From positions 5,332,001 to 5,396,000 of the forward strand of contig JAQQWL010000002.1 of assembly GCA_038363925.1 (NCBI GenBank): a DNA stretch of 64,000 bases. Direction: 5' to 3'. Position numbers and translations under genes: made by a program. The notes under the pieces are model-generated. The model saw only the letters and a program-made list of their open reading frames with translations, was not told where the DNA came from and did no database searches. This DNA comes from Apiospora phragmitis. Lineage: Eukaryota; Ascomycota; Sordariomycetes; Amphisphaeriales; Apiosporaceae. Below, in pieces: positions 6,658-46,192 of this stretch. Position 1 is the stretch's first letter; each line of letters begins with the position of its first letter.

Positions 6658-7415
6658 TTAGGTTAGCAGGTGTGTATATAAGAAGCTTCGCTTACACATC
6701 TCACGCTCCACCTTGCTTTGGCGACGGGCTATACCCTGTTCCACGGAACCGGGACGGAGGTGTCGAGCCGTGACGGGGTCTCCGCCGCTGTTCTCTTCCG
6801 ACATGTACGCTTTCACGGCTTCCTTGGACATGGACGCCTTGGATGGTGACTCGATGTTGGTGGTTATGGCGGGTGCAGACCTATCTGGAGTCTCTCTGTT
6901 GAACGCGGGCTGGGTATCAGACTGATGGGATATCAAGCAAGTCTTGCACCGTGGTTCGGTCAGACTGGCTCGTTATGAGAGAGAAGGGCATACGGAAAAG
7001 AGTTTGAAGAAGTGCTTCTCGCGGCCTTGAGATTGACGACCACGACCAGGAAAGAGAGCGAGAATTATGGTATAAGGAAAAAGGGGTTCAAGAAAATCTG
7101 CAACGTCTTTGGGGGTGACTTGCCCCCATTGACCGACTTCATCACAGTGGCTTCTATGCTTTGGGAGCCGAATGTAACGGGGTAGAGAAGGGAATGAAGT
7201 GAAGTTCGATAAGGTAATTCAATAATTGTTTTTGAATGCAGTGGTTCAACGCAGCTGAGGCAAAGGTTGGAATTTGTTATAACAGGTACGCCTTCGCCAT
7301 AAACATTGTGGAGCGGGCTTGATTAATAACGCTTGGAGATAACAGGCATAGATAAGATGAGGATGCACCACCGTACATACCCTCCATAGGTGCAGCGGTC
7401 TGAGGATCCGGCCAT
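6658..7415 (-). CDS. Array copy A: small two-exon protein of an unrecognised family
   Basis: Exon 1 is 7415-7381 (ATG in a good context, CCACCAATGG), encoding MAGSSDRCTYG plus two bases. The intron 7380-6896 starts GTATGT and ends CAACAG. Exon 2 is 6895-6658. The 273-nt CDS gives 90 aa with a junction reading YGGETPDRS. The conserved block SPSKASMSKEAVKAYMSEE and core NSGGDPVTA are present, then RQSKVEREM. After EREM the other copies read AASL..LN, whereas this copy diverges to CKRSFLYTHLLT. Right there a donor-like GTAAGC, branch-like CTAAC and CAG would allow a second 49-nt intron, so the 3' end is uncertain. There is no signal peptide, membrane segment or known domain; it looks like a soluble, partly disordered protein ending in a charged helix. 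I do not recognise the family and assign no function. The gene structure is supported by matching exon ends in all six copies. Confidence 0.72.
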
Positions 7416-9664
7416 TGGTGGAAGTGTTCAGCAGCTTGTGCGGCGAGTGTGATTGGTTGGGGGCTTCAAGGTAATGATGACAAAGCCTGGGCCTATACTT
7501 CGGAGGGAGAAAGGGAGAAATGGAGGATGGTACCTTGAAGAGAAACCATTTTTATACCTTTACGGTGTGCGCGCACTGAAAAACAGTATGTACTTGTTTT
7601 GTAGGTCTACAGGAGGTACGTTATGAGTGATTGCCTTTATGTATGCGGATCATGGGGACCGTCCGGCTCTGCGAAGTCGGTGGTTCCTAAGATGCATAAC
7701 ACGCGAACTATCACATCTGCCTTGGGCTGACTTGGGACTGCCTTGAAGCTGTTAACCATAAGTATTTCCCCCGCTCCATTTTTGCCTATTCGTTCCATCT
7801 TGCCTTTTCTCCCGCTCGCTGGAGCAAGATGAGCATTCTGCCTCCTCACCGTAAATATACGATCGCGTTGCGATGACAAGTTAAGAGAGTGGAATGATCG
7901 TGTATTTGACTGCCCTGTCCGGTATTATATCCCAAGTTGGATGTTGCGTGAAGAGTTTCATTTAGAAAGCTATATTACTAGGACAAGATAGAGAATAAAA
8001 GAAATAGGAAAGGTGAACATAAGCAGCAGCATGAGAATGGTAAAGATAGCGCATCCGACACAAGCACCCAAAATATGTCGGCTTCCTTTTTTCTTTCTTT
8101 TTTTCTCTTCAGAATAGCCGGCACCCTGGATGCGCAACTTTGCTCTCCAGCTTACCAGCGGCATGGGAAACTTCGGTAAGGAGGCCCATTGCGCTCTGCA
8201 CGCAGAACCACCGTTTTTCGATGAGTTCTTGCAACTGGCTGTGACTTCGGTCAAACCTGCTTCTCTTAAGATTCCGTCCAGCTGCTACGTGTTCGGACCT
8301 CGTACCAATCGCTGCTGGCTGGGCTGGGAAACGTACATGCATTCATTGGCGCGCGCTCTGGCACGGCAAGGGGTAGAGCCCAATACCTCGGCGACCGATC
8401 GGATCTCCGGTCTTTGTCCGAGTAGGAGGACGGATGGTGTCAGGGCAGCTGGCGGACGGACCGTCGTACGTGAAGTACGACATAGATTGATTCACTGCTT
8501 GCACTGAGCCAAAAGGCGGCCGGCTGTTGCCGCTGATGTTGCGAGTGCGTTCATATGCACATAGAAGGTCATTTTCGAAGCTTCTTAGGAAAACCTAACA
8601 CTGTCCCGAAGGAAGAACATAGGCTGGAAGAGATCAGGAAGTTGCCGCGTGTATTAAATGCCCAAGCCCCTTTTTCTGTTGTTGTGGCCACCCTCGTTAC
8701 CCCGCCGCCATTATCAGGAAACTTAACCCAGCATTTGCCGCCATTTCAATCGGTATTCCGTTGCCTCATCAGGAGAGCGATAGAGAAGCAATCAGCAGAG
8801 CATCGAATGCCCCTAGGTACTCTCGGTGTCCTGCCCAGGTCGAACGCCAACGATCTCCTATGCGGACTTTTCCTATTTTCGTGGCCAGTAACATCGTAAC
8901 CTCCGTTGAATCCCAGTCAAGGAAAAGCATTGAAAATAAGGGCTGGAGAGCGAGATAAGGAGAGGATAAAAAGAGAATAGGAACTGATATGGATGCCCTT
9001 CATTTCCTGCAACCTGAAAACGCCAACAGTAACTTCGTGAGAGCCGTGGAACGTGATGTAATGAAAAAGCTCTTCCGAGCAATCCTGAAAATTCAAAGGA
9101 AAGGTAGGGGGCCCAGGTGTGACCTTTTCCCTCCAAATCCTGCGCCCTACCGCTTCCCTGCACTCCTCGCCTGGAACCGTCAAAGAAAATCAAAATTCGA
9201 CGACCTCTTCAAGGCAGCGCAGCTTGAGATCCGAGGACGTGCAGGAACAGGTGTTGTGGCCAACCGGTTCGAATATTGGGGGGAGGGGTATCCATCTGCT
9301 CTATGTATCATGGCGGCATGAGACAGGTACATTGTGAGATTCGATCGCGCGCACTGGCTGGTATGGGAAGGTACCTAGCACAATGTGTCGGTTGCTGAGC
9401 CGTTAGGCCAGTTTGGTGTCAAATGGCGGGACCGATCAAGCTTAACCTTATCGGGTGGATTCTGACCCCACGCACCCATAGCGCGTCGGGACGGAGCAGC
9501 GAATCAGGCAAAGGCGTCTCGACTGTTTAAGTAGGTATGTCGGAGTGTCGCTCAAGGTTTACCGGACTAGGTTATGCATATTCTTGTTTCAGTGACATGG
9601 CTTGTTACTCATGTAGAGATCGAGGCACTCACACAAGATTTGACAATGGGATCGATCTTCTTAG
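7416..9664. other. Spacer between array copies A and B
   Basis: It holds the promoter and 5' UTR of copy A (7416-about 7700) and the 3' flank of copy B. Open frames at 8130-8507 (+, 125 codons), 8989-9321 (+, 110 codons) and 7970-8254 (-, ending in a hydrophobic stretch) show no recognisable domain and no repeat in other spacers, so they are not called. Sequence near 9385-9465 (CTAACGGC, AAGGTTAAGCTTG on minus) resembles the 3' flanks at 40185 and 45230. Confidence 0.5.
7549..7556 (-). promoter_or_regulatory. TATA box of array copy A
   Basis: TATAAAAA on minus, 134-141 nt upstream of the copy A ATG. The other copies have theirs about 230-320 nt upstream. Confidence 0.45.
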
Positions 9665-10189
9665 CTAAGCAGAAGTCCCATTTAACTTCTTGAGTGCCGC
9701 CGCGATCTCGCGCCCAACTTTAGCCTGCCGGTCGGCGCTGCTCTTCGAAATTGAGTCAGGTCGGAGGGCCAAGGCGGTCACGGGGTCCCCGCCTTCGTTC
9801 TTGGTCGACATCCAGGACTGGACCGGCTGGTGAGACGTCAAGTTCTTGGTCTTCATGGTTTCTCTAGAAACACTGGTGGTTGGTTAGAGAGACCCCTTCT
9901 GAGCCGTACACCACGGGTGCTCATGGCATGTCGGCCATGGGGATCCTCATGGATTAAGTATAATTCGCAGCGCGGATGGCGCCAAAGGAGCGATAACATC
10001 ACCTCGCAGACTAATAACGAACCAAAACTTAAAGAAGCTACTGGCTTCATCGGTTCTGACACATGAGGAGAGCTTGACAAAACATGTACTGACACGAGTC
10101 GGAATCAGAGAAGGTGGACATAGGTGGGAGACATAACCCTCAGGATATACATACCCGTTGCTAACGGATCGATCCGAAGTGCCACCCAC
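9665..10189 (-). CDS. Array copy B: small two-exon protein of the same family, start codon changed to GTG
   Basis: Exon 1 is 10189-10155: at the family start position it reads GTG GGT GGC ACT TCG GAT, giving VGGTSDRSVSN. The intron 10154-9864 has donor GTATGT and acceptor CTAG. Exon 2 is 9863-9665, continuing GGETMKTKNLTSHQPVQSWM, then core NEGGDPVTALALRPDS and C-terminal helix RQAKVGREIAAALKKLN, ending GTSA and TAG. Total 234 nt, 77 aa, in frame. All five other copies have ATG where this one has GTG, and I see no in-frame ATG just upstream. The copy may be silent, start inefficiently at GTG, or start inside exon 2 (ATG at 9856). Its second exon is shorter between the splice site and the core than in A, C, D and F. 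Function unknown. Confidence 0.65.
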
Positions 10190-12698: not shown

Positions 12699-12991
12699 TT
12701 AGCACAGAACCGAACTTACAAAGTTCGAGAAGTAGGCATAGTTCGGTCCATGAGTTGATGTTTGCGTGGACGAACCCCCGTTCAGTTGCGTGAGAGATGC
12801 CGCCATCTCACGTTCGACCTGGGTGCGGCGGCTGCTCACGCTTTTGGAGGCAGAACCGTGACGGAGGGATAACGCAGTCACAGGGTCTCCGCCGCTGTTC
12901 TTCTTCGACATGTATGATTTGACTGTTTTCTTAGACATGGACGCCTGGGATGGGGACTTGGTGTGTGTAGCAATAGCATGAGATGGCTTGT
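12699..12991 (-). pseudogene. Array copy C, 3' part of exon 2, cut by retrotransposon element 1
   Basis: Downstream fragment of copy C. On minus from 12991 it reads HKPSHAIATHTKSPSQAS, then MSKKTVKSYMSKK, core NSGGDPVTALSLRHGS, helix TQVEREMAASLTQLNGG, and a tail ending SNFVSSVLC with a stop at 12699. The first five bases (12987-12991, CTTGT on plus) are the target-site duplication. The 5' part of exon 2 and exon 1 lie 22 kb away at 35149-35670. Exon 1 (35 nt) + 11 nt + 293 nt = 339 nt, exactly 113 codons, so the gene was in frame before insertion. Near the end a GTAAGT at 12719 could be a donor for a further intron, as in copy A. The frame is uninterrupted apart from the insertion, which suggests that the insertion inactivated a working gene or a recently working one. 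Confidence 0.8.
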
Positions 12992-13584
12992 TGTTACGAC
13001 CTAGCCTAATCATACGGCCTAGACCCACAATTTACCGGCACGGAACTACTATACCCCGACCAGGCTACGATACTACCGATACCTATAAGACCGCTAGCTA
13101 TATTAATATGAGCGTACCTATACTCCGCGACCGGCCGCCGCTTAACGCGATGCCGCCCCCGGACGGCTATGGGACGGATAAACATCCTCGTAAGGGAAAA
13201 CTAAGGGCGGAGGTTACGTGACGGATTTAGGGGATCTAGGATAAATCCGGCAGATCCAGGTTTGGGATCTAAAGGATCTAGAATAGATCTAATAGATCTA
13301 AAGAATTAATAAAAAAGGGATTAAATATATAACTACGAACGTTTTTTATATATTTTATATAAATATTCTTTATTTTAATAATTAATTTAAATATTAATTT
13401 TAATTTATTAATAAAGTATATTATTTTAATAATTTTATTATAAATATTTTTAAATTTTATATTTAATTACGATTAAATTACGGTTATTATTTATTATACG
13501 TTTAAATATTTTCTCGTATTATTAATATAAACCCCCGTATATTTTATTAAGGTTTTTATTAAACCTTTAATAATATTCGTTATA
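12992..13584 (+). repeat. 5' LTR of element 1
   Basis: Begins TGTTACGACCTAGCC; the end TTCGTTATA corresponds to TTCGTTACA of the 3' copy. The first 250 bp or so are lightly mutated, the rest heavily. Confidence 0.88.
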
Positions 13585-13679
13585 TTTTAATTATTTTTAT
13601 TTTTACGAGTTATTATTTAAACCTTTAAATAATAACCTTATAAGAAACATATTTACTTTAAGAAATAACGCCCCTCGCC

Positions 13680-14953
13680 ACGATAAGGACGTTACTTAAC
13701 CTGCTTTTAATATAAAAATCGAAAATAATAATAACGAAAACATCCTTATTAACCCGAGCGAGCTAGTTAAATAATTTAAGCGATTTTAATAAGCGAACGC
13801 TAATTATTAATACTACTATACTAAGCTTAAAAAAGAGCGCGACGCGCTCCGGGCTTAAGTAGCTTTTAAATAAATAATAAACGATATCGATAAGCTTCGT
13901 AAAAAGGTTTAATTTTTACGAACTACTATTAATATTATTAAAACCCCCGTCGCATTTAAAAACAAGGTTAAGATTAGCGTATTAACACTATTCGATAAAA
14001 CGAGCGGGAACTTCCGAGAATTCCTCGTCTAAGTTAAGGCTTACTAAAGATTTTATAAAAAAACGTTTAAAGATCTAACCTAGAAAGTTATTTATACGGC
14101 CTCCTTTTTTAAAAGAAAAACCCTCTTATAGTTTAAACCTTATTTAAACGAACTCGTAAAACGCGATTAGTAAGTTAAACTATACCGTATCGAGACCTAG
14201 TAAATCTTTAATAATTACGACAGCTTCGAGAACGCTCTCAAATTACTTTTTTAAGATCTCGACGAAAAACGATAAGCTAAAAAGGAACTCGAGCACCTTA
14301 AGTAAAAGGGATCCGTAATAACGTATATCGTAAAGTTTTAACGTATTATAGCTCGTTTAAATTATACCGAAGCTATTAAAATTATAATATATTACCGAGG
14401 ATTTAAAAAAGAAATTAAAAACGAACTTAATTAATTAAACGCCCCGATTACTTTCCTCGTATATATAAAACTTACTATTAAGATTAATACGCGCCTATAC
14501 GAACAACGCCGCGAGAAATAAGGCGGATAACCCCGGTAGAACGAACGAACCAGGGCTAATACGAGACGACTATATTAATAGGTTAATACTTAAACGAAAA
14601 TAATTACCGTATACGAACACTATAATAAACCTATAAACCTCGACGCTACTAAACACGATAAAAATAATAAAAAGTAGAACATTACTTGCTATAACTATTT
14701 AAAAAAGGGATACTATGCTAGGGAATACCGAGGACCGAAGAAGGTATTTTAACGTGTTTTAAAAGGACGACAAATTAACATTACTAGGAGTAAAGCTACC
14801 CTTATAACGGCTATTAACGGAAGTAGCGCTAACGACATGCTAAACGTGCCCCACGGCAGCCTATCCTGGACAGCCTATTACGATAATGGATGCACCACGC
14901 ACCTAGCGGACAAGGAAGGCACCGGATAGTTCCTAAAGGCCCCGAAAGGCAAG
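13680..14953 (+). pseudogene. gag remnant of element 1
   Basis: Plus-frame fragments read LFDKTSGNFREFLV and, near 14690, CYNYLKKGYYAREYRG. The latter is a CCHC zinc knuckle in which the second Cys, the His and the last Cys have all become Tyr (TGT/CAC to TAT/TAC), as RIP would do. The frame ends LSWTAYYDNGCTTHLADKEG, then is cut by element 2 at 14954. Not functional. Confidence 0.75.
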
Positions 14954-15592
14954 TGTTACGACCTAGCCTAATCATACGGCCTAGACCCATAAATCGTTAG
15001 CACGGAACTACGATACCCTGATCAAGCTACGATATTATTAGCGTTAACCGAACCGCTAGCTATACTAATATAAACTTACCTATACTCCGCGATCAACCGC
15101 CTAGTACGACGCCACCTCGATAAAACTATAGGACGAACGAAGCGCTTACGAAGGCTAAGGACGAACGTTACGGGACCGCGGCGTCCCGAGTAAGCCCGCT
15201 AAAATGGATTACCGTAATTTAAGGAAGGGATCACCGTAATCTAACCACGGGATTACTATAAATTAATAAGTAATTTAAAAAGATTAATAAAAAAAGAATT
15301 AAATATATAATTATAAACGTTTTTTATATATTTTATATAAATATTTTTTATTTTAATAATTAATTTAAATATTAATTTAATTTATTAATAAAATATATTA
15401 TTTTAATAATTTTATTATAAATAATTTTATTATTTATATTTTATATTATATTTATTTTTATAATTATTATATATTATATTAATAAAAATAAATTTTTATT
15501 ATATATTTAAATATTTTTTCGTATTATTAAATATAAACTTTTCGATATATTTTATTAAGTTTTTATTTAAATTTTTAATAACGTTCGTTATA
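14954..15592 (+). repeat. 5' LTR of element 2
   Basis: 639 bp, TGTTACGACC...TTCGTTATA. Same LTR family as element 1, but the sequence after about 15100 differs (GACCGCGGCGTCCCGAGT motif), defining a sub-type shared with element 3. Confidence 0.88.
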
Positions 15593-15669
15593 TTTTAATT
15601 ACTTTTATTTTTATAAATTATTATTTAAACTTTTAAATAATAATATTTATAAAAATTATATTTATATTT

Positions 15670-18600
15670 AAACTTTATAACACCCCTCGTTACGAAAAGG
15701 CCTTTATTATTACCGTAAATACCTTTTAACGAGATCTTGTTATAAAAATAAATAGCGATAATAATAACGACGGCTTTATTTATTAAATATTAATTAAACG
15801 AATTAAAGAATTTAAATAAAAAAGCGTTAATTATTAATATTATTACGCTAAGTTCGAAAAAAAACGTAATACCTTTTTAATAAAAGAAAACTTAAAATAA
15901 ATACCCGATATTAATAAGCTACGCGAAAAAGTACGTCTCTTTTATACCGCCGTTAATATTATTTAAACCTTTATCGCTTTAAAAAAAGGAATAAAGATTA
16001 ATTTACCTACGTTATTTAATAAAACGAGCGGGAACTTCCGAAAATTCTTCGTTTAAATTAAAACCTATTAACGGTTTTATAAAAAAATATTTAAAAACCC
16101 TATTTAACGAATTATTTACGCCGCCTTATTCCTTAAAAATAAAGTACTTACTTAATTCGAACCTTATTTCGATAAACTTATAAAAAGCAATTAATAAATC
16201 GAATTATACCGCACAAAAATATAACGTATCTTTAGAAGTTACGATAAATTCGAGGACGCCTTTAAATCATTTTTTTAAAACCCCGATAAAAAACGATAAA
16301 TAAAAAGAGAGCTTAAAACTTTTAAATAAAAAAGATTAGCCGTATTTTATACCGCCGAATTCCGACGTATTATAACTTAATTAAATTATACCGAAGTTAT
16401 TAAAATTATAATATATTACTAAAAATTAAAAAAAGATATTAAAAATAAACTTAGCTAGCTCGATACCCTTAATAATTTCTTTTCGTATATAAAGCTCACA
16501 ATTAAGATTAATACTCGTACATATAAATAACGCCGCGAAAAATAAAGCGGATAATAATAATAAACTAATCGAATTTAAACTAATATAAAATAACCGCGTT
16601 ATTATTATAATATACAGCCCCGAAATATTACCGCGTATAACTATTATAATAAACCTATAAATCTCGATACTATTAAACATAATAAAAACGATAAAAAATA
16701 AAACGTTACCTACTATAACTATTAAAAAAAAGGGTATTATTCCCAAAAATACCGAGCCCCGAAAAAAGACTTTTAAAAAGTCCCAAACGGACGATACATT
16801 AACGCTACGACGAGCGAAGATGTCCCTATACTAGCTATTAAAAGAAGTAACGCTATTACCGATTACGGGAGCCTATCCTAAATAGCTTACTACGATGATA
16901 GGTATACTTTCTACCGAGCGGATAAAGAAAGAACCGGATAGTTTCCTAAAGCTTTAAAAATAAAAAAAGCCTTAAGCGGAGCGTTATTATAATAAGTAAA
17001 GATTTCGCCTTAACTTATAATCTCGTCCTTAATAACCCTAATAATAATAATAAAATTATTAATTAAAAAAAACAACCCGCTAATTACGAATAATTAATCG
17101 ATATATTAATAAGAGAACTCGTAAACGAAATTACTAGGTTTAAAAACTTTAAAAATAATAAATAACTAATTATCCTAAACATTCTTTACCTAAATTTAAA
17201 ATATTTACGCTAAATATTTATTACGGTAAGATTCGTTTAAAAAATCCGCGGTAACTACGTAATAAGTAATAACCCCCGAATCTTTTTTATAAACGAAGTA
17301 TACTTTATGTTTTTATAAATCTTATATATATATAATATTTATATAAAATATTTCGTAAAAAAACTTAAAAATAAATAATTTCCTTAATAAATTAATAAAC
17401 GAGCTATTACGAACCTATACCCCGACTATATAATTAAAAAAATTAAAATATCGATCCTTAATAAACGACGCGCGTATTTATTAATATAAGAATATCCGAG
17501 GTAGTTACGAAAATATTACTTAAAAAAACGGGACTAAAAGGAGTATTTCGAAAATTAATACTTCGAATACGCCTAGAAAAAATCGCGAGCTTATAAACAT
17601 TTAAAAAAAAATACTTTATATTTTTAAAATATATAAGCGTACGTTTAATAAGAAAACCCCTTTATTATAATTAAAAACTTATAAAATATTTACGAATTTT
17701 AACGAACTTAATAAACCTTTAAGTTATTTAAAAAACCCGAATTTTAAGTATTAAAAATAATATTTTATACGGGGAAAAATATAAAAACACCTCCGTTAAT
17801 ATATTAAGAAGCTCCTTATAAAAATAAAAGGGAATAATAACGATAATAAAACGGTTAGTCGCGAGAATTTATTACTTACTTAAAAGAATATCGGTTAAGT
17901 AATAAACGCCGCCGAATATAAAAAGATAATATTAAGTAGACTAAAAAAGGTCCCTATATTAAATAATAAATAAATAAGATATTTATAAGTATATTATTTT
18001 AATAATAAATATAAAAAGAATTTATATTAAAGCGTTACTCGATAACGAAACGTAAAGAAATTATATCTTATTACGAATCGTTAACCGCTTAAAATTAAAA
18101 TAATAAAAAAAAGACGCCCTATACCGATTTAAAACCGTTAATAAAGGACTTATAACTTATAATAATAAAGAAATATAAAAAGAAGTCGCGAATTTTCCGG
18201 TTAATATCGAAAAACGTTACGAATAAATTATATATAATATTATAAACGTTATAAAATACGATATAATTTTAAAAATATTTTAATTATAAATAAATAATTT
18301 TAAAATTAATTAAAAAACAGGCTAACTTTAATAAAATATATTAAAAAGAGGTTTAATTAATAAATAACGGTTTAAAAAATAACTTTTTAATAAACTTAAA
18401 ATACTTAAAATATATATTATTATTAAAAAACTTAAACCGAACGTTATAAGGATTATACTAAAAAAGTATCGGTAATTCGAAGCTCTCTTTAATAAGAAAT
18501 TAAAAACAGGCTTACCGCTTTATACACAGTAGGATTACGAGATACCCTTTAAAAACGGGAAGGAACCCCTATTCATACTTTTATATAAATTTAATTAAGA

Positions 18601-21350
18601 ATATAAATAAGCTTTAAAAGAATATATTACGGAGAACCTCGAAAAAAGAGTTATACGATTATTTATATCGCTAATAGGCTTCCCTATCCTCTTTATTTTA
18701 AAAAAAAGTAAAAACGGGAAATCTAAGTGGCGTATATATATTAATTACCGAAAGCTTAACGAAATTATTGTTAAAAACCGGTACCTTTTATTTTTAATTA
18801 GCAACCTACGGAATAAGCTATTATATATTAAAATCTTTATAATATTTAACCTGTTTAATATATATAACTTAATTCGCGTTAAGAAAAGAAAAAAATAAAA
18901 AACCGCGTTCCGAATAAAGTATAAATATTCCGAATACTAAGCTATATTATTTAAATTAATTAATATACTAATTAGCTTTTAATTAATAATTAATTATATC
19001 CTACGTAAATACCTTAATAAATTCGTTATAATATACCTCGATAATATCTTTATTTATTCCGAGAACGAAAAATAGTATAAAGAGTACGTAAAATTAATAC
19101 TTTAAAAACTGCAAGACGCTAATTTATTAATAAACTTAGAAAAAAACGAGTTCTATTAACGAATAATTACGTTCGTAAAATATATAATATCCCCTAAAAA
19201 AATATAAATAAAGTAATTAAAAATCGTAATAATTAAAAAATAGCCTACGCTTATAAACGCTATAAAAATTAAATCTTTTTTAAAATTAACTAATTATTAC
19301 CGGATTTTTATCCCCGGATTTAACAGGTTAGCAACACCCCTTACGAACCTAACGAAAAAAAACGAACTATTTAAGTAAACGGAAGCGGAAGAAACCGCTT
19401 TTTAAGTAATAAAAAAGCGAATCCTTAATAAATTAATACTTCGCGTAATAAATTTAACTAAACCCTTTAAAATCGAAACTAACGCATCGGACTATACGAT
19501 CGGAAAGTAATTAAATTAACGGGACGATAACGAAAAATCGCACCTTATCGTATTATTTTCGAAAAAGTTAAATAAACCCGAGCTCAATTATTAAATCTAT
19601 AATAAAAAGTTAATAACTATTATTAAAGTTTTTAAAAAATAGAGATATTATTTTAATAAAATAATAAAGCTAATAAAAGTTTATATTAATTATAAAAACC
19701 TTATTACGTTTATTAATATAAAAAAACTAAATAAATAATAAATACGATAGTCCGAATTCTTATTAAAATTTAATTTCGTTATTATTTATAAAAAAAATAA
19801 CAAAAACGGAAAAGCCGACGCCTTAAGTTAACGACCGGACTATTAAAAAAAAGTGCTACCCGAAACGTATACTATTTTTATATAGGATTAAAATAATAAT
19901 TTAATACCGTCTCGATAATTAAACGCTATTAACTAAATTTAATACTATAATAAATAAGTTATTAAGTTTAAAAAATACGCCCTTAAAACCCCGAACTCTA
20001 TTAAGGAGGTAAAGAACGGACTTAATACTAAAAAAGGGATTATATATTACCGCGGTAAAATCTATATCTCGGAACTTTCGCGTAAAGAATTCGTTAAGGA
20101 ATTCTACGAATACCTTATATATAAATATTAAGAAGTTTTTAAAACCTAAAAGCGAATTATTAAATAATTCGATTATAAGAACTTAAAGCCCCTTATAGCC
20201 AAGGTAATTAGCGAATACAACCTATATAATAAAGCTAAGGCCGCTAAATATAAACCTTATAACCAACTATAACCGATTCTACCACCGAATAAAGTATAAA
20301 AAACTATTACGCTAAACTTCATAATTAAGTTACTAGCCTCTAAAGAATTATTAATTAAGGCTAAATACGATAATATTTTAATAATTACCGATAAGTTTAT
20401 AAAATATATTTACTTCCTCTTCTATATAGAATTAAATAATATTAATAACCTTACTTATACGTTCCTCCGTATTATTATTAATTAATACGGATTATTAAAA
20501 ACGATTATCTCGGATCGAAATAAACTATTTATTACTAAATTTTAAAAATCGCTTATAACGTAACTCGGTATTAAATATAAATTATTTACGGCCTACTATC
20601 CCTAAACGGATAATTAAACCGAACATATAAACTAAACCTTAAAATAATACTTATAATATTATATTAATTATAAATAAAATAATTAAGTATTATTATTATT
20701 AATAATATAATATATTTATAATAACGTAAAAAACGAGGTAACACGTATATCGCTATTCCGAACAAATTACGAATATAACCCCGAGATCGCTAAAAAACCC
20801 TTAAAAAGAGAATTAACACCGGCTACGACTATTTAAATTAAAAAACTAAAAGAATTCTAAGCCGCGTTATAATAAAACCTCGCTTTTTTTTTAAAAAAAA
20901 AATAAAAAAATACGCCGACTAAACAAAAATAAAGGGATTAATTTTTAAAAAAAGAAAAAAGGTTTACTTTTTACGGTAAAATATTAAAACTAAATAACCT
21001 AGCGATAAACTAAACTTTAAAAAAATCGGACTATTTAAAATCGTAAAAATTATTTTAAAAACTAATTATCGCTTATTATTATTTAAAACTATAAAAATAT
21101 ACTTAATATTTTATATTTTTTAACTCAAGCCAGCCTTAACACACATAATACTCGATACTTAACTAAAAATCGAAACAGATCAATACGAATACGAAATCGA
21201 AAAAATCGTTAATAAAAAAAAGATCGGCCGAAAATAAAAATACCTCGTTTAATAAAAAGGTTACTTATTAAAAAATAATATTTAAAAATTTAAAAAATAC
21301 TTAAAAAACGCCGTTAAAAAACTTTAAAAGTTTAAAAAAGAGCTCTTTCA
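15670..21350 (+). pseudogene. gag-pol remnant of element 2
   Basis: Order of recognisable parts on plus: gag (TSGNFRKFFV near 16020); zinc-knuckle relic near 16710; protease at about 18030, where the expected DSGA reads DNET; reverse transcriptase with YRKLNEI near 18750 and YLDNIFIYSEN near 19035 (catalytic YLDD with the second Asp changed to Asn); RNase H; integrase; chromodomain near 21190-21330 (KIVNKKKIGRK then YLV...KGYLL). Gln and Trp codons are replaced by TAA/TAG throughout. Not functional. Confidence 0.82.
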
Positions 21351-21439
21351 GCGGAAACTAATAAACCGGGCTCCGGAAAATCGCTTAAACTAAAAAATAA
21401 TTAATTAACGTTCCCGGAAATACTTAAAGAACATAAATT

Positions 21440-21960
21440 ATTTAAAACGAAATCCTTTTAATTAATAATCGAAAAAGAAATACCGTCCTCTTCGTTTAGC
21501 TCTTATATCTCTCGACGAAACGTTTCCGAACGCTTTTCCGCTATAACCTTTTTTATCCGACGAAAACGGGCTAGCCGGCCTAAAGTAATAAATAATTAAG
21601 TCTATAATAAGAACAGAGCCTCCTCTATATCTACCTTTTCTAACTCTAGCTTTTTTTATTAAATAATTAGCCGTATTAAAGCCGATATAATAAAAATATT
21701 ATCGTAAAAACGATTAACCCGAATATATTTTATATAACGGAACGATATCTCGTTTATATAATAAACCAGGTTTTAACGAAAATAGCGAGTATAAAATATA
21801 CCGGTTAAATCGTCTATAAATTCTACGTTATTAATAAGAACTAAACGCGTAATAATTTTTTTTAATCGAAATTTTTCGATATAATTAAATATTATAATAA
21901 ATATATATTATAATAAGAAATAATAAAAAAGAATTTATTAAAACTTAACGAAATAACGAA
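21440..21960 (-). pseudogene. Antisense open-frame relic in element 2
   Basis: On minus, opposite to pol, between the chromodomain and the 3' LTR. Fragments read IDDLTGIFYTRYFR, RYIKYIRVNRFYDN and IRLII..KKLELEKVDIEEA, followed by RFRRIKKVIAEKRSETFRRE. RYIKYIRVNRFYDN would be RCIKCIRVNRFCDN if RIP turned Cys into Tyr. It corresponds in position and layout to the frames at 24880, 34260, 52171 and 56197. Confidence 0.55.
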
Positions 21961-22021
21961 AATAAAGGTATTTATAAAACTTAACGCTTTAAAAATAAAA
22001 TAATTAAAAAAAAGAGAATAA

Positions 22022-22716: not shown

Positions 22717-22721
22717 GCAAG

Positions 22722-24699: not shown

Positions 24700-24879
24700 T
24701 TATTCTCTTTTTTTTAATTATTTTATTTTTAAAACGTTAAGTTTTATAAATACCCTTATTTTTATTATTTCGTTAAGTTTTAATAAGTTCTTTTTTTTAT
24801 TTTTTATTATAATATATATTTATTATATTATTTAATTATATTAAAAAATCTCGATTAAAAAAAACTATTATATATTTAG

Positions 24880-25265: not shown

Positions 25266-25379
25266 GATTTCGTTTTGGGTAATTTACGTTCTTTAAGTGT
25301 TTCCGGGAACGTTAATTGGTTATCCTTTGGTTTAGGCGACTTTCCGGAGCCCGGTCCGTTAGTTTCCGCCGAAAGAGCT

Positions 25380-28300: not shown

Positions 28301-30970
28301 TAATATATTTTATTAAAATTAACCTATTTTTTAATTAATTTTAAAATTATTTACCCGTAATTAAGGTATTCTTAAAATTATATCGTATCTTGCGACATCC
28401 GTAATATTATACGTAATTCGTTCGTAACGTCTTCCGATATTAACTAAAAAGTTCGCGACTTTTTTCGTACTTCTTTATTATTATAAGTTATAAGTTCTCT
28501 ATTAACGGTTTTAAGTTAATATAGGGCGTCTTTTTCTTACTATTCTAATTTTAAACCGTTAACGATTCGTAATAAGATATAGTTTTTTTACGCACCGTTA
28601 TCGAGTAGCGCTTTAATATAAACTCTTTTTACGCTTATTATTAAAATAATATACTTATAAATATTTTATTTATCCGTTATTTAATATAAAGACCTTTCTT
28701 AATCCGCTTAATATTATCCCTTTATATTCGGCGGCGTTTATTTCCCGACTAATATTCTTTTAAATAAGTAATAAATTCTCGCGACCGACCATTTTATCGT
28801 CGCTATTATTCCCTTTTATTTTTATAAGGAGCTTTTTAATACGTTAACGGAAATATTTCTATATTCCTCCCCGTATAAAATATTATCTTTAATACTTAAA
28901 ATTCGGGTTTTTTAAATAACTCGGAGGTTTATTAAGTTTATTAAAGTTTATAAACGCTTTATAAATCCTTAATTATAATAAAAGGGTTTTCTCGTTAAGC
29001 GTACGCCTATACGTCTTAAAAATATAAAATACTTTTTTTTAAACGTTTATAAGCTCGCGATTTTTCCTAAGCGTATTCGAGGTATTAGTCCTCGAAATAC
29101 TCTTTCTAATCCCGTCTTTTTAAGTAGTATTTTTATAGCCACCTCGGATCTTTTTATATTAATAAGTATACGTATTATTTATTAAAAATCGATATTTTAA
29201 CTTTCTTAATTATATAATTAGGGTATAAATTCGTATAATTCGTTTATTAATTCGTTAAAAAAACTATTTATTTTTAAGTTTTTTCGTAAAATATTTTATA
29301 TAAACGTCGTATATATATAAAATTTATAAAAACGTAAAGTATATTTCGCTTATAAAGGAGATTCGGGAATTATCGCTTATTACGTAGTTACCGCGGATTC
29401 TTTAAACGAATTTTACCGTAATAAATATTTAGCGTAAATATTTTAAATCTAGGTAAGGAACGCTTAAAATAATTAATTATTCGTCGTTTTTAAAGTTTTT
29501 AAACCTAATAATCTCGTTTATAAATTCCTTTATTAATATATTAACTAGTTATTTATAGTTAACGGGTTATTTTTTTTAATTAATAATTTTATTATTATTA
29601 TTAAAGTTATTAGGGGCGAAATTATAAATTAAAACGAAATCTCTACTTATTATAGTAACGTTTCGTTTAAAGCTCTTTTTCGTTTTTAAGGCCTTAAGAA
29701 ATTATCCGGTTCTTTTTTTATCCGCTTAATAAAAGGTATACCTATCGTTATAATAAGCTATTTAAAATAGGTTATTATAATTAGTAATAGCGTTACTTTT
29801 TTTAATAATTAATATAGGGAAGTCCTCGCTCGTTATAATATTAACGTGTTATCCGTTTAAAACTTTCCGAAAATCCTTTTTTAAAGCTCGGTATTTTTAG
29901 AAATAATACCTTTTTTTAATAATTATAATAAGTAACGTTTTATTTTTTATTATTTCTATTATATTTAATAATATTAAGATTTATAAGTTTATTATAATAA
30001 TTATACGCGGTAATATTTCGGAGCTATATATTATAATAATAACGCGATCGTTTTATATTAGCCTAAATTCGATTAATTTATTATTATTATTCGCTTTACT
30101 TCTCGTAACGTTATTCGTATATATAAGTATTAATTTTAATTATAAACTCTATATATAAAAAGAAATTATTAGGGGTATTAAGCCGGCTAAGTTTATCCTT
30201 AACGTTTTTTTTTTAATTCTCGATAATATATTATAATTTTAATAATTTCGGTATAATTTAATCGAGCTATAATGCGTTAGAATTCGGCGGTATAGGAGGT
30301 GGCTAATCCTTTTTACTTAAAAGTTTTAAGCTCTCTTTTACTTATCGTTTTTCGTCGAGGTTTTAGAAGAGTGATTTAAAGGCGTCCTCGAAGTTATCGT
30401 AACTTTTAAAGATACGTTATACTTCTGTGCGGCATAGTTCGATTTATTAATTATTTTTTACGAGTTTATCGAGGTAAGGTTCGAACTAAGCGAGTATTTT
30501 ATTTTTAAAGAACGAGGCGGCGTGGATAACTCGTTAAGTAAGGTTTTTGAATATTTTTTCGTAGAACCGCTAGTAGGCCTTGACCTGAACGAGGAATCCT
30601 CGGAGGTTCCCGCTCGTTCCGTTAAATAGCGTGGATAAACTAATCTTTATTCTTTTCTTTAAGGCGACAGGGGTTTAAATAATATTAGCGGCGGTACGGA
30701 GAAGACGTACTTTTTCGCGTAATTTATTAATATTAAGTGTTTATTTTAAGTTTTTTTTTATTAAAAAGGTATTACGTTTTTTTTCGAGCTTAGCGTAGTA
30801 GTGTTAATAATTAATATTTTTTTACTTAAATTCTTTAATTTATTTAATTAATACTTAGCGGGTAAAGCTATCGTTATTATCGTCGCTATTTACCTTTATA
30901 GCGGAATCTCGTTAAGGGGTACTTACGGTGGTAATAAAGGTTTTCCCGTAGCGAGGGGTATTATAAGATT
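25380..30970 (-). pseudogene. gag-pol remnant of element 3
   Basis: Minus-strand counterpart of the element 2 gag-pol, in the order (right to left) gag with zinc-knuckle relic, protease near 28590, RT with the KLNEI region near 27880, RNase H, integrase and chromodomain. Dense TAA/TAG from RIP. Not functional. Confidence 0.78.
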
Positions 30971-31048
30971 TAGGTATAAATATAATTTTTATAAGTATTA
31001 TTATTTAAAGATTTAAATAATAATTTATAAAAATAAAAATAATTAAAA

Positions 31049-31687
31049 TATAATAAATATTATTAAAAATTTAAATAAAAACTTAATAAAACGTACCGAA
31101 AAGTTTATATTTAATAATATAAAAAAATATTTAAATATATAATAAAAATCTGTTTTTATTAATATAATATATAATAATTATAAAAATAAATATAATATAA
31201 AATATAAACGATAAAATTATTTATAATAAAATCGTTAAAATAATATATTTTATTAATAAATTAAATTAATATTTAAATTAATTATTAAAATAAAAAATAT
31301 TTATATAAAATATATAAAAAACGTTCGTAATTATATATTTAATCCTTTTTTTATTAATTTCTTTAAATTACTTATTAATTTATAATAATCCCGTGGTTAA
31401 ATCACGGTGATCCTTTCTTTAGATCACGGTGATCTATTTTAACGGGCTTACTCGGGACGCCGCGGTCCCGTAACGTTCGTCCTTGGCCTTCGTGGACGCT
31501 TCGTTCGTCCCATAGTCTTACCGAGGTAGCGTCGTACTAGGCGGTCGATCGCGGAGTATAAATAAGTTTATATTAATATAACTAGCGGTTCGGTCGACGC
31601 TAATAATATCGTAGCCTGGTCGAGGTATCGTAGTTCCGTACCGACGATTTATGGGTCTAGGCCGCATGATTAGGTTAGGTCGTAATA
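31049..31687 (-). repeat. 5' LTR of element 3
   Basis: 639 bp. Inner edge heavily mutated (TATAATAAATATTAT for TGTAACGAACGTTAT); outer 250 bp much less so. Confidence 0.87.
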
Positions 31688-31692
31688 GTTAT

Positions 31693-33840
31693 ATCCTTAA
31701 GAGAAATACGAATAAAATCCTCTAAAGTAATAATAGTTAAGGAGTAGCTAACGCCTATAAGCGCTATAGAAATCAGATCCTTCTTAAAACTAGCTAACTA
31801 TTACCGGATTTTTATCCCCGGATTTAATTAGTTAACGATACCCCTAACGAACTTAATTAAAAAAGATATATTATTTATATAAATTAATAAAAAAGAAGAA
31901 ACTTTTTAAGCTATAAAGGACCGAATTATTAGCGAACTAATACTCCGCGTAATAAATCCTATAAAACCCTTTAAAATCGAAACCGACGTATCGAATTATA
32001 CAATCGGAAGCTAGCTAAATTAACGAGATAATAACGGAAAGCTACACCCCGTCGTATTCTTTTTGAAAAAACTAAATAAATTAGAGCTTAATTATTAAAT
32101 CTACCATAAAAAATTAATAAATATTATTAAAGCTTTCGAAAAATAGAGATATTATTTTAACGAAACGGTAAAGCTAATAAAAGTTTATATTAATTATAAG
32201 AACTTAACTACGTTCACTATTACGAAAAAGCTAAATAAACAATAAATACGATAGTCTAAGTTCTTATTAAAATTTAACTTCGTTATTATATATCGTAAAG
32301 GTAGCGATAACGGGAGGGCTAATACTCTAAGCTAACGACTAAACCACTAGGAAAAAGTTTTACTAAAAACCCGGACTATCCTTATATACGATAACGATAG
32401 TAACCTCGTATTATTACGACACCTACACGTAACTAACCATGTTTAGCACGACGATAAATAGGTTATACGCTTTAAGGAATACTACGGACAAATAGATATA
32501 GCCACTTTATAACTACCGTATAGAGTTTCGAAGAACGGGCTAATATATTATTAAGGCAAGATCCTTATTCCTAAATAATACCGATAAGAATTTATCCAAG
32601 AATTTCACGCACACCCCGCGTATAAATACTAAAGAGTATCTAAAACGTGGAAGCGATTTACACAGCTATTTAACTACGAGGACCTAAAAAGTTAAGTCGC
32701 GCGAATTATTAATAAATACGACCTATATAATAAAGCTAAAGCCGTATAATACTGACCGTATAGGAAACTATAACCTATACCACCACTAAATAAAGTATAA
32801 AAAACTATCGCGCTAGATTTTATCGTAAAGCTATTACCGTTTAAAGAACCCTTAATTAACGCTATTTACGATAATATCTTTATTATTATAAATAAGTTAA
32901 CGAAGTATATATACTTTTTATTATATAAAGAAGTAAGTAATATAAAAGAATTAATATATACCTTCCTTAAAACTATCGCTAATTAATATAGTTTACCGGA
33001 ATAGATTATCTCTAATAAAGATAAACTGTTCATAACTAACTTCTAGAAATCGCTCATAACACAACTAGGCGTTAAGTACAAATTATCCACAGCCTATCAT
33101 CCATAGACGGATAAATAAATAGGACGAATAAACTAGATATTCGAGTAGTATTTACGCTATTATATTAATTACGAATAAAACAATTAGGTCAAGTTATTAC
33201 TAATAGCCCAGTTCGCCTATAACAACTCCAATAACGAAACACTCAGCATATCACCATTTAAAGCCAACTACGGATTCGATCTAGAAATCATACGAGCACC
33301 TCTATTAGGAGAACTCGCCCCGATAGCGACTATTATAATTAATTACCTCAAAGAACTATAGCAAGGATTATAAAAAGATCTAGTATTCTTATAAAACAAG
33401 ATAAAGACGTATTATAACCAGTTAAAATTAAAGGGACTAATCTTTAAAAGAGGAGATAAAGTTTACTTACTTTATAAAAATATTAAAATAAAAAAACTAA
33501 GCGATAAACTCGACTTTAAAAAGATTAAACTATTTAAAATAAGAGAAATTATTTTAATAACTAATTATCGCTACTTAGTAATATAAAGATATACCCCGTA
33601 TTTTATATTTCCTTACTCGAACTAATATTTAAAAACGCTTAGATTAAAACTAACCTAGAAATCGAAATAAATTAACATATTTACGATATCGAAATAATCC
33701 TCGATAAAAAGAAATTCGGAAATATTTAGAAATACTTTATTAAATAAAAGGGGTACTTATTAAAAAAAAACATATAAAAACTTATTAATTATTTAAAAAA
33801 CCTAAAAAAAGAGCTAGAATTCTTTTATTAATAAGGCTAA
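31693..33840 (+). pseudogene. RNase H, integrase and chromodomain part of element 1
   Basis: Continues pol of element 1 after element 3. Integrase zinc-finger relic near 32610-32740 (EFHAHPAYKY...KYDLYNKAKA, where CDLC has become YDLY) and the catalytic core near 32850-33300 (KLTKYIYFLLYKE, SNKDKLFIT, STAYHP, AQFAYNNSNNETLSISPFK). This core is among the least mutated parts of the nest. Chromodomain relic about 33670-33830. Confidence 0.78.
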
Positions 33841-33849
33841 ATTAGGCTA

Positions 33850-34260
33850 ATACCGAGGGGTCCAGGTCGACCTCCGGGAAAGTATTATCTTAACCGTTTA
33901 TAAAGCCATCGGAGGAAATCGGAGGAACGGAGGGACCCGGAAGAGCCTCTACCGCATAACGACGCTCTTCCTCGGCAGCCTCTTTACGCTCCACCTTCTC
34001 TAACTCCTCTACGTTATTAATACCGCGACGAATAGCCCGTTATATTTTCTCTAACCATATCTTCTTCTACTTTCGAACTAGACGAACCTTCGTAACAGCC
34101 CGTTCCGACTCTTCTTTTACCGCGTCTAGCTCTGCTTCGACCTTAATATATTTCTTTTTAATCGAGCGGATTTAAATAATAAATAAACTTTATACGTTAT
34201 AATAAGACTAGTTATAGCGAATATATAGCTCGTAACGAGAAAGGTTTCGGGCTAAAACTT
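33850..34260 (-). pseudogene. Antisense open-frame relic in element 1
   Basis: Minus strand, opposite to pol. Fragments include RYELYIRYN.SYYNV (RCELCIRCNQSC before RIP), KVEAELDAVKEESERAVTKV, a basic stretch RK.KKIWLEKI.RAIRRGIN and an acidic coil NVEELEKVERKEAAEEERR ending in a Pro-rich tail. Same layout as the 159-codon frames of elements 4 and 5: Cys motif, coiled coil, Pro/Ser tail. Confidence 0.55.
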
Positions 34261-34528
34261 TATAAAAAGCGATACTATAGCTTTTATAATAAAAATAAAA
34301 AGGTATAATAATAAAGTTTTAAAGAAAGAATAATAATAAGGCGTTATATTTTTTAATCTTCGGAGTACTCGATTTTCGTTTCTTAATACGATTTAACATA
34401 ATAAATATATATTATAAAAATATAAAAAAAAAGGAAGGATTTATAATAATATACGCTACGCGTAAATAAATTAACTTATTTATAAAACTTAGCGCTTTAA
34501 AAATAAAATAATTAAAAAAAAAGAGGAG

Positions 34529-35143
34529 TATTACGACCTAGCTTAATTATACGGCTTAAACTTATAATTTACCAGCACAGAACTATTATACCTTAACCAG
34601 GCTACGATATTATCGATACTTATAAGACCGCTAGCTATACTAATATAAACGTACCTATACTCCGCGACCGGCCGCCGCCTAACGCGATGCCGCCCCGGAC
34701 GGCTATAGGACGGATAAATATCCTCGTAAAAGAAAAGTAAGGGCAGAGGTTACGTAACGGATCTAAAGGATCTAGGATAAATCCGGCAGATCTAAGTTTA
34801 AGATTTAAAAGATCTAAAACAGATTTAATAGATCTAAAGAATTAATAAAAAAGGGATTAAATATATAATTATAAATATTTTTTATATATTTTATATAAAT
34901 ATTCTTTATTTTAATAATTAATTTAAATACTAATCTTAATTTATTAATAAGGTATATTATTTTAATAACTCTATTATAAATACCTTTAAATTCTATACTT
35001 AATTACGATTAAGTTACGGTTATTATTTATTATATTAATAGGCAACTACTTGTTATACGTCTAGATACTCTTTCGTATTGCCAACATAAACCCCCGTACG
35101 TTCTACCAAGGTTTCTATTAGACCCTTGATAGCGTTCGTTACA
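34529..35143 (+). repeat. 3' LTR of element 1
   Basis: 615 bp, TATTACGACC...GTTACA; the last 100 bp or so are barely mutated. The purine tract AAAAAAAAAGAGGAG sits immediately upstream. Confidence 0.88.
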
Positions 35144-35148
35144 CTTGT

Positions 35149-35670
35149 GCGGCATCTTTCTGTTGAATAGGGGTTGGATGTCAGAGTGAGAGGTCTAGCA
35201 AGTAATGTGCCTCCCGTTACGCCGTCTGCATCCTTCTAAAGGTAGGGGCATACGCAAAAGACAACTCTGCCCTTGCGACCTTGGATTGCCATCACGAACA
35301 GGAAGGAGGGAAATGCTGAAGCAGCCGGCACAAGGAGCGCGCAGAAAGGAATCGTCAGAACGGAATCGTCCCAGGAGTGACTTGCTCCATTGACTGACTA
35401 CACCTGGCTAGGTACAAGACGAGTTGACAGCCGAACTTCAAAACGAAGAGAACATGGGATGTAGGTTTCCACCATGGGCAGGCTGTGGTCCCAAGCAAGT
35501 AGATAGTCGAGGCCGGTGACAGATGTTAAAAGTGTAGCGACGAAGTAAAAAGATACGTCGGTAATCGCACAGCAGGTTAGACAAGAAAATGTTGAAGACG
35601 ATGAGAAAGATAAAATGCGAGTGCACTATACGTACCCTGCGTGCACACTGCATTCTGAAGAGCTACCCAT
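35149..35670 (-). pseudogene. Array copy C, exon 1, intron and first bases of exon 2
   Basis: Upstream fragment of copy C. Exon 1 is 35670-35636 (context CAGCAATGGG), encoding MGSSSECSVHA plus two bases. The intron 35635-35160 starts GTACGT and ends CAACAG, like copy A. Exon 2 begins at 35159 and runs 11 bases (completing GG, then K M P and the start of H) to 35149, where the CTTGT duplication and the LTR follow. The rest of exon 2 is at 12991-12699. Intron sequence shares words with copy A (plus strand: GTGACTTGCTCCATTGACTG against GTGACTTGCCCCCATTGACC), so A and C are close relatives. Confidence 0.78.
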
Positions 35671-37445: not shown

Positions 37446-38159
37446 TCACGAAGTTCTGTACAGCTTCAGTGATGCAGCCATCTCGCGCTGGACCCTGGCC
37501 TGCCGCTCGGCTGCGCTTTGGGACGAAGAGTCGGGTCTCAGGGCCAAGGCTGTCACAGGATCTCCGCCGCTGTTCTTGGTGGCCATGTACGACTGTACAT
37601 TGTTGCGGGAAATTTCGGTCTGAGGGGGGGGGCTGGGTGTTTGCGGTGATAACATTGGGGGACTTGGATAGAGCCGCACTGTTCCGTGTAAGCTTCGATA
37701 TACTTACCTAAGTAACAGGAAATGTGGAATTTGCTTGGACGTTAATTTTCACTGTGGTCCTTGGAGGGGAGATGTCTGTTGAATGCGGAAGGGGGCAGCT
37801 GAAGATTATGTCATAACGTGACAAGGGTGCAGATGGTTAATCGATAAGGTAACGATTGGGCAAGGTACTTGGGTACTTAGTGGCAAGCTCACTTGAGAGC
37901 GCTGAATCCATCATACCACTAACACGGCTGCTGCCCATAACGGGAAACCGCGCGTTCTAGATTTGGTGGGAAGTGAGAGAACAACGAATAGCAATCTAAT
38001 CTACGAATACATAGGCAGATGATCTTGCAATTGAGGCGGAATAATCCACACTTGGACTGGCGTCGATATTAAAGTTACGTAGGGATTAAGAAAGATCGTG
38101 AAACATGGAAAACATGCAGCATACCCCTTATAAACACTTTGATCCAATGAGCCAACCAT
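37446..38159 (-). CDS. Array copy D: small two-exon protein of the same family, one-base frame break in a C9 tract
   Basis: Exon 1 is 38159-38125, encoding MVGSLDQSVYK plus two bases. The intron 38124-37679 has donor GTATGC and acceptor GAACAG. Exon 2 is 37678-37446. The start of exon 2 reads GGAALSKSPNVITANTQ, which aligns without gaps to copy A; the core NSGGDPVTALALRPDS and helix RQARVQREMAASLKL follow in another frame, ending YRTS and TGA. The two frames meet at nine C (minus strand; 37624-37632). Eight C would give one open frame of 88 aa, the same length as copy F. The break is either real or a homopolymer error. If real, the product stops early or needs another start. Function unknown. 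Confidence 0.68.
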
Positions 38160-41188: not shown

Positions 41189-41562
41189 TTACACCCGGGA
41201 GAGTGCTTCGGCCACCTCGCGCGCGACTCTATCTAGTCTTTGGGCAGTACTCTGAACAGATGACTCGGGTCGAAGAGCCAGCGCATGTACAGAGTCGCCG
41301 CCGCCGTTTTTGGTCGATATGTATGATCTCGTCTGTTGTTTGGCCATCGAATTCTTGGGTTATGCATACACTTGATGGAATTGGAGGGACATCACACATG
41401 GCAAACCCGCATTGCTATCGAAGAAAACAATACAACTGATGATTGTGCGGTCATGGAGAAGAAACCAGACGCTTAACTGGCGTAGACATTGGAGGAGTGA
41501 GAACGTAAGAGGATCAGGACAACGCACCCTCCATGAAGACTTTGATCAGATGAACCAGCCAT
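41189..41562 (-). pseudogene. Array copy E: same family, in-frame stop in exon 2 and short intron
   Basis: Exon 1 is 41562-41528, encoding MAGSSDQSLHG plus two bases. The intron 41527-41415 is only 113 nt, with donor GTGCGT and acceptor GATAG. Exon 2 is 41414-41189. Exons total 261 nt, in frame, but codon 41362-41360 is TAA. The following PKNSMAKQQTRSYIST aligns to the SPSK.SMS..VKSYM block of the others, so TAA probably replaced CAA, a C-to-T change at CpA. Downstream the frame is open: core NGGGDSVHALALRPES and helix RLDRVAREVAEALSRV, then TAA. Translation could start at the ATG 41347, giving 52 residues. The core is the most diverged in the array (DPVT to DSVH). The first part of the intron resembles copy D (ACGCCAGT word), and most of the rest has been lost. 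Confidence 0.65.
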
Positions 41563-41836: not shown

Positions 41837-41843
41837 TTTTATA
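41837..41843 (-). promoter_or_regulatory. TATA box of array copy E
   Basis: TATAAAA on minus, about 278 nt upstream of the ATG, in a context (AAGATGATGGTTTATAAAA) like copy D. Confidence 0.5.
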
Positions 41844-45229: not shown

Positions 45230-45335
45230 CTAACAGCCCTATCCGTCAGGAGTATATCCACTCTACTGGGTCCCGCCGGGTGCTACCGAGAATGGCAAGC
45301 TTAACCTTGTACCTATGTATCGTCGGAGATCTGTA
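45230..45335. repeat. Duplicated 3' flank of array copy F (pairs with 40185-40330)
   Basis: See the partner entry. A fainter relative lies at 9385-9465, downstream of copy B, at a similar distance (about 200 nt) from the stop codon. Confidence 0.55.
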
Positions 45336-45506
45336 ACGCCCGTGCTGTAGATGCAGAAGCAGTGCTCTGATGATACGCGCACTGTATACGTGTTAGTTCC
45401 GTTAGCCAACGATGATATTAGATAACAGGTAGTGATCTCAGCCGAGAGCCCAACTTCTGGCCATGCCACTTACATCCAATTCGAAACAATGCCCGCTGTA
45501 CTTGTT

Positions 45507-46192
45507 TTACTGGGTTTTGTTGAGCACAGCCAGTGATGCTGCCATCTCGCGCTCAACTTTGGCCTGGCGGTTGGCGGCGCTCGTGGACGAAGAGGGGCGA
45601 AGCGAAAGAGCTGTGACAGGGTCTCCGCCACCATTCGTGGTCTTCATGTACGACTTGACATTCCTCTGCGACATCGACGTCTTTGAAGGAGATCTGGTGT
45701 TTTCGGAGACGAAGTGTGAGGGCTTGGAGTGGGTTTCACTGTTATGTATAAGAATTCGTACAGCGAAATGGCCCGAAAGTGTTACTGGCGACTTGATGGA
45801 TATGGTAACGTGCTGGAAGGCAAATCGTGCCAATTGAGATTGGGGAAGAGTGGAGGGGTGAATGTTAGGGGGGATATTTTCCATCAAGGCTTTGTGATCC
45901 GGAAGCCGGGGACAAACTACCATCGACAGTGGGGAGGGCTTAAGTAAGTATGTACATGTAGGTAGTGTTGGCTAGGTACCTTTTGAGGCTTGGCACTTGT
46001 GGTAGCTCGGAATGTACCGAGATGGAGGAAACAGTAGGTATGTACCCGAAAAAGGAAGGGGTTGCATGTCCTATTAGAAAATGACCTGTAGCACACGCCC
46101 ACCGTCGAACTTTTGAAGCAGAGAGGTCTATAAGAAAGAACATATTAGGCAACATACCCTCCGTAAACATAACGATCAGATGAATCACCCAT
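45507..46192 (-). CDS. Array copy F: small two-exon protein, the only undamaged copy
   Basis: Exon 1 is 46192-46158 (GCTGCAATGGG), encoding MGDSSDRYVYG plus two bases. The intron 46157-45739 starts GTATGT and ends ATAACAG. Exon 2 is 45738-45507, ending TAA. Exons total 267 nt, 88 aa, with no interruption. Layout: residues 1-12 are the conserved SSDR.VYGG start; about 13-35 a variable Ser/Thr/His-rich linker ending SPSKTSMSQ; about 36-46 NVKSYMKTTN; about 47-60 the core GGGDPVTALSLRPSSS; about 63-84 a helix RQAKVEREMAASLAVLN. There is no signal peptide, membrane segment or cysteine pattern, so a soluble intracellular protein is likely. The family is unknown to me and no function is assigned. 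It is the natural reference for the array. Confidence 0.78.

Follow-up and report, generated by a model that had tools for sequence, protein, structure and literature searches.

Taxonomically restricted tandem gene families are a general kind in fungi, limited to a clade, clustered, and composed of small proteins without known domains. The locus described here resembles them in these respects. On the minus strand of a 64,000-nucleotide stretch of the Apiospora phragmitis genome (the window, lying in the final 0.2 Mb of its contig), six copies of one two-exon gene form a single-orientation tandem row. It differs from such families in that the order of the copies within Apiospora and a site near the gene ndc1 across the subclass Xylariomycetidae have been preserved, which would appear to be unusual. 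The closest individual likenesses are hypothetical proteins of Apiospora (e.g., PG991_011905-011909) and Xylaria (e.g., EKO27_g5458), which share the core, an exon-1-like N-terminus, and consecutive locus tags or proximity to ndc1. A. marii PG991 has five such proteins of 82–88 amino acids (aa) with an exon-1-like start, whereas in A. phragmitis a single copy is clearly intact. Literature searches found no publication on the family. An initial annotation of the same DNA took the array to be younger, less ordered and, in A. phragmitis, less broken than it proves to be.

Gene anatomy of the array

The copies are numbered c1 to c7 by position, with c3 and c4 being the two parts of one split gene:

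46158..46192, minus strand: c7 exon 1, 35 nt, MGDSSDRYVYGG
45507..45738, minus strand: c7 exon 2, the sole clearly intact frame
41528..41562, minus strand: c6 exon-1-like sequence, MAGSSDQSLHG
41189..41353, minus strand: c6 exon-2-like open reading frame (ORF), with GGDSVHAL in place of GGDPVTAL
38125..38159, minus strand: c5 exon 1, MVGSLDQSVYKG
37446..37632, minus strand: c5 exon 2, core open through the acceptor before 37632
35636..35670, minus strand: c4, exon 1 of the split gene, a match to the exon-1 pattern
35144..35159, minus strand: initial 16 nt of the split gene's second exon, terminating in the 5-bp duplication ACAAG
12699..12991, minus strand: c3, the rest of that second exon, beginning with the second ACAAG
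10155..10189, minus strand: c2 exon 1, GTG replacing ATG, VGGTSDRSVSNG
9665..9863, minus strand: c2 exon 2
7381..7415, minus strand: c1 exon 1, MAGSSDRCTYGG
6658..6895, minus strand: c1 exon 2, core GGDPVTAR, tail after EREM unlike that of the family

Exon 1 is 35 nt long in all six copies and is followed by a phase-2 intron placed after ...GG. A stop-free DNA pattern for it ([AG]TG-N30-GG + GT[AG][CT]G[CT]), peptide-blind but composed once the copies were already known, had exactly six matches on the two strands of the 64 kb, and these were the six first exons. The exon junction was in frame at the expected position in c7, c1 and c2, through shifted acceptors only in c5, and not at all in c6, the split gene being left unjoined in this test. 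The core is likewise confined to the array: a DNA pattern for GGDPVTA had five matches in the 52.7-Mb genome, and the c7 exon-2 product, used as a query, reached six places (six of six candidates), all of them inside the window. The first introns measure 485 nt (6896-7380) in c1, 291 nt (9864-10154) in c2 and 419 nt (45739-46157) in c7, long for a filamentous ascomycete, in which the usual norm is below 120 nt. The introns of c1 and c4 have stretches in common, as judged by eye.

The initial annotation had placed six minus-strand loci here, each with a 35-nt first exon and one of them split (12699-12991 plus 35149-35670), with splice sites at 46157/45739 in c7 and 7380/6896 in c1. All of this was borne out; both junctions join open frames, and the split gene is real, with ACAAG at 35144-35148 and again at 12987-12991. 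The ATG of its common exon-1 start is present in every copy except c2, and its GGDPVTAL core with an EREMAASL helix needs amending, as GGDPVTAL is present in c2, c3, c5 and c7 but c6 deviates and c1 lacks the AASL tail. The wider family core, N-x-GGDPVTAL-x-x-R and an S...R...V helix start, was found in the array, in c6 only partially. The lower end of the reported 2.5–4.3 kb spacing stands, while the start-to-start distances computed from the coordinates, with the inserted element removed, extend to about 4.6 kb (~2.5-4.6 kb). As for the description of six genes, six loci are present and their intactness was overstated.

The A. phragmitis array looks mostly broken, with c7 as its one clearly intact copy. 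In c7 an open frame, a donor and an acceptor are found together with a TATA box upstream, the spliced product has 88 aa, and it is 80% identical to an A. hydei relative across 74 columns. With the acceptor at 6896, c1 gives a 90-aa product. Its GTG start aside, c2 shows no fault in its frame, and a 63-aa ORF (P0001) opens at an in-frame ATG of the second exon. The frame of c5 stays open only if an acceptor at 37632, 37662 or 37692 is used, and the family linker is lost with each of them; judged by eye against P0041 and P0010, the linker frame of the relatives is interrupted at a run of C. No in-frame AG acceptor of c6 leaves at least nine residues ahead of the core, and c6 is probably a pseudogene. 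Assembly error may be the source of some lesions, most readily at the C run of c5.

Family membership and distribution

A profile search of the kind that the initial annotation had proposed did find relatives. A six-row profile gave 72 proteins (E ≤ 1, among 2,866 candidates). With 22 rows the profile found 97 (among 6,936 candidates), for a combined total of 101; the search covered predicted proteins of 0.55–1.75 times the query length, so that longer core-bearing proteins and unannotated genes were missed. The named members come from Apiospora, Xylaria, Nemania, Biscogniauxia, Monosporascus, Rosellinia, Poronia and Pseudomassariella, or from Xylariaceae without a genus name. The eight named genera are members of two Xylariomycetidae orders, Amphisphaeriales and Xylariales, and on this sequence evidence a family with such a spread is not young. 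The only named A. phragmitis matches are PG994_002447 and 002448, and the intact c7 is not among them. Hypoxylon, Daldinia, Pestalotiopsis, Microdochium and others have ndc1 but no family protein among the matches listed, either through loss or through missed annotation.

No relative was found in Pfam, NCBIfam or the PDB with the 68 of 101 proteins that were scanned or in the profile. The best Pfam/NCBIfam E-values were 0.11, 0.02 and 0.063 (the latter two from 68 of the 101 proteins each), none of them significant; the precomputed Pfam annotation was empty for all 101, and a PDB sequence search returned nothing usable. The labels DUF3606 and phage-integrase SAM-like, carried by P0045 and P0039, were considered and rejected, as neither was among the Pfam matches at E 0.1 of the 68 members, P0045 and P0039 themselves included. 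A single core pattern missed 36 of the 101 proteins, mostly those with N-S-GGDP and N-E-GGDP forms.

Location near ndc1 and order of the copies

Among the Ndc1 matches listed (the best 120 of 377), 17 organisms were also named in the family search, and in 15 of these a family gene and ndc1 lie on a contig of the same size. Such calls rest on identical contig sizes and, for multi-sequence clusters, the contig may be that of another member. The 15 comprise five Apiospora (A. phragmitis, A. sp. TS-2023a, A. rasikravindrae, A. arundinis and A. kogelbergensis), four Xylaria (X. acuta, X. grammica, X. arbuscula and X. telfairii), P. vexata, Monosporascus GIB2, B. marginata, B. mediterranea, R. necatrix and P. 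punctata. Six pairs, from four Apiospora, one Monosporascus and one Xylaria, have numbered tags, and in each of them 2–4 tag numbers separate ndc1 from the closest family gene; contig size gives the association in a further nine organisms. Contig sharing is weak on multi-megabase contigs, and the weight rests on the tags and on short contigs (40–94 kb, four organisms). Judged from this distribution, the array site near ndc1 looks ancestral.

In a core tree of 66 rows and 76 columns, with 16 of 63 inner branches open, c7, c6, c5, c3 and c2 each grouped with copies of other species, and c1 fell within the c3 set. The tree was built without P0003, P0050, P0068 and the window ORFs P0001 and P0005, and only six non-Apiospora proteins were included. 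The grouping of the window c7 with the neighbouring c7b set is weak (85/58). Copies were typed by hand from this tree and their locus-tag order was compared with the window. All 20 comparable pairs agreed, in eight blocks from seven Apiospora assemblies, a result matched by 49 of 20,000 within-block shuffles; orientation was free for each block, so that three one-pair blocks agree by construction. With blocks of at least three rows only, 17 of 17 pairs followed the window order (46/20,000 shuffles). One typing is doubtful, TS-2023a 005408 being called c6 yet standing outside the supported five-row c6 set; when this row and A. marii PG991 were also removed, 12 of 12 pairs remained in order (226/20,000 shuffles). 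The arundinis and kogelbergensis blocks contributed zero comparable pairs. In A. marii PG985 and A. saccharicola PG996 the series stands in two blocks about 200 tag numbers apart, a common split that suggests a shared rearrangement.

Selection on the core and protein features

The ratio of non-synonymous to synonymous substitution (dN/dS) was computed for paralog pairs within A. phragmitis. It lay between 0.01 and 0.24 in 11 of 15 pairs, over 24 codons and at dS values from 0.95 to near saturation; in the remaining four dS was infinite (saturated). These low ratios speak for past constraint on the core, as read from the codons, and are silent on the present state of the broken copies. The initial annotation had named a ratio of about 1 throughout, together with a lack of spliced transcripts, as counting against its reading, and the observed values, where computable, reach at most 0.24. 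Its picture of an unrecognised, diverged family without a known domain or a signal-peptide-like stretch agrees with the Pfam/NCBIfam scans and hydropathy, and no transposon domain matched, a result that it had named as counting against its reading had the core proved part of a known transposon protein. A view of simply fast-evolving, lineage-specific genes is not supported: the family occupies two orders, has relatives of like type and order in other species and a site near ndc1, and has a low core dN/dS where computable.

By the hydropathy measure alone, no 19-aa stretch above 1.6 occurs in any of the 101 proteins, and 48 full-length proteins contain 20 cysteines in total. AlphaFold predicted the same three helices in two models, at residues 31-46, 52-57 and 63-87 for the A. 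marii query and 27-43, 48-54 and 59-86 for that of Xylariaceae sp. AK1471; the N-terminal parts are non-helical and of low confidence. The DP-x-T and S-x-x-(D/E)-R steps resemble helix caps. Two motifs mark the N-terminal part, counted without P0001, P0005, P0026 and P0055. The first, (S/T)-P-x-(K/R), is a consensus of the cyclin-dependent-kinase type, and of 55 Apiospora proteins 33 have it among residues 1 to 50, versus 5.7 after shuffling. The second, P-x-(K/R)-x(1,2)-H, is enriched in Apiospora (18/55 versus 1.0) and in the others (19/42 versus 0.9 expected).

Upstream of the genes, TATAWAW occurs within 420 nt in five of six copies, compared with an expectation of 0.13 per copy; the control was window DNA outside the transposons, in which the upstream regions of the copies themselves were included. 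According to its genome paper (PMC10999098), the A. arundinis annotation made use of RNA sequencing; the paper names the public data set PRJNA891674.

Proposed function and alternatives

The locus may be read as a tandem array of long standing and kept order, formed by an undescribed Xylariomycetidae microprotein family, usually near ndc1 and decaying in A. phragmitis to c7, whose products would serve as intracellular regulatory adaptors. As a whole this reading is tentative, and the mechanism that follows is inferred from gene and protein anatomy. An intact gene would yield a soluble protein of about 85-95 aa, its N-terminal half (exon 1 and the start of exon 2) disordered and rich in Ser, Thr and Pro, and its core helical, with one helix, then GGDPVTAL and a short helix, then a long helix. 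The near-invariant N-x-GGDPVTAL-x-x-R and the long helix might bind a partner or a second copy, and proline-directed kinases might tune this binding at (S/T)-P-x-K sites in the N-terminal tail. Paralogs with TATA-type promoters could be active under different conditions.

Several observations weigh against this reading. Confidence in the AlphaFold models is low (predicted local distance difference test 70 and 69; predicted template modelling score 0.30 and 0.31), and a PDB fold search gave two matches only, at E 4.4 and 9.2. The (S/T)-P-x-(K/R) excess is small outside Apiospora (7/42 versus 2.6), and related sequences are non-independent. The TATA box of c1 is at −141 while those of the other copies are at −234 to −321, and no 8-mer is common to the upstream regions of at least four copies. 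There is no CTRAY branch-point match within 60 nt of the c7 acceptor. The dN/dS values come from only 24 codons with dS near saturation. Two of the 17 organisms (Xylariaceae FL0594 and X. palmicola) have family and ndc1 contigs of different sizes, the family contigs being 46 and 25 kb. The array is also not rigid, because the series is split in PG985 and A. saccharicola and a stray TS-2023a relative (tag 005379) stands apart from its own series, at a distance of 18 tags from ndc1.

The absent CTRAY match, together with lesions or doubtful frames in five of the six copies, would also fit a rather unlikely situation in which all six A. phragmitis loci are non-functional relics and c7 is intact by chance; against this stand the open frame of c7 with its splice sites and upstream TATA box, and its likeness to the A. 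hydei relative. Small diverged tandem genes with decaying copies, set between AT-rich transposon blocks in a plant-associated fungus, further recall host-directed small effectors released unconventionally from a diversifying array, an idea that we consider unlikely. The 101 proteins have no hydrophobic signal-like stretch and the full-length ones few cysteines (the 20 counted above), the core is constrained where dN/dS could be computed, and the family lies near a housekeeping gene, ndc1, and also occurs in Xylaria, which are largely wood-decay fungi.

Decaying tandem copies, several of them broken in one species, could mark a selfish element such as a meiotic driver of the spore-killer kind, but order, type and site are common to several species and the proteins show no membrane-like segments or known domain, which makes such an element very improbable. 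That transposon-derived coding fragments mimic a gene family is suggested by the AT-rich transposon blocks flanking the array and is hardly credible; this explanation is already disfavoured by the confinement of the core to the array in this genome, by the shared exon-1 length, by the absence of transposon families from the profile matches, and by the retroelement having inserted into a copy.

The proposal of an ordered regulatory array can be carried further, to a regulatory family kept near ndc1 throughout Xylariomycetidae history and forming in Apiospora a Hox-like series, each position with its own orthologs and job, that has collapsed to one member in A. phragmitis. This is a speculative extension, more doubtful than not by a wide measure. 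If true, A. phragmitis would be a natural experiment in which the series is reduced to a single member. The subclass gains a coherent, annotatable family where members are now scattered short hypothetical proteins, several probably mis-modelled. A stable, ordered orphan array offers a handle on the way in which small proteins restricted to a clade acquire distinct roles and retain them; A. phragmitis is a reduced case.

Inserted retroelement and surroundings of the array

The other features of the window are:

12992..35143, minus strand: AT-rich nest of long terminal repeat (LTR) retrotransposons, 22,152 bp, inside exon 2 of the split gene
691..2961, plus strand: ndc1 (PG994_002444), left flank, Pfam Ndc1_Nup
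4094..5623, plus strand: flanking ORF with a hydrophobic N-terminal part, PAP2/NICE-3 matches below cut-off
48648..49034, minus strand: 4HBT thioesterase, right-hand flank, PF03061, 4.1e-12

The nest has a GC content of 0.22-0.36 and ends in TGT..ACA; its ends share 89% identity across 505 aligned bp, and an LTR length of about 615 bp is inferred from the ends of the alignment. With its two ACAAG copies (12987-35148) it leaves a clean 5-bp duplication in an exon, a datable insertion into a gene. Searches of the window for RNA families and tRNAs found none. The ORF at 4094-5623, without a match in a PDB search, may resemble Dlt1. The ndc1 frame apparently shifts between its first two segments (691-2003), through either a short intron or an assembly error. 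Past the thioesterase gene, toward the end of the contig, a second AT-rich block occupies window positions 51000-64000 (GC 0.24-0.36).

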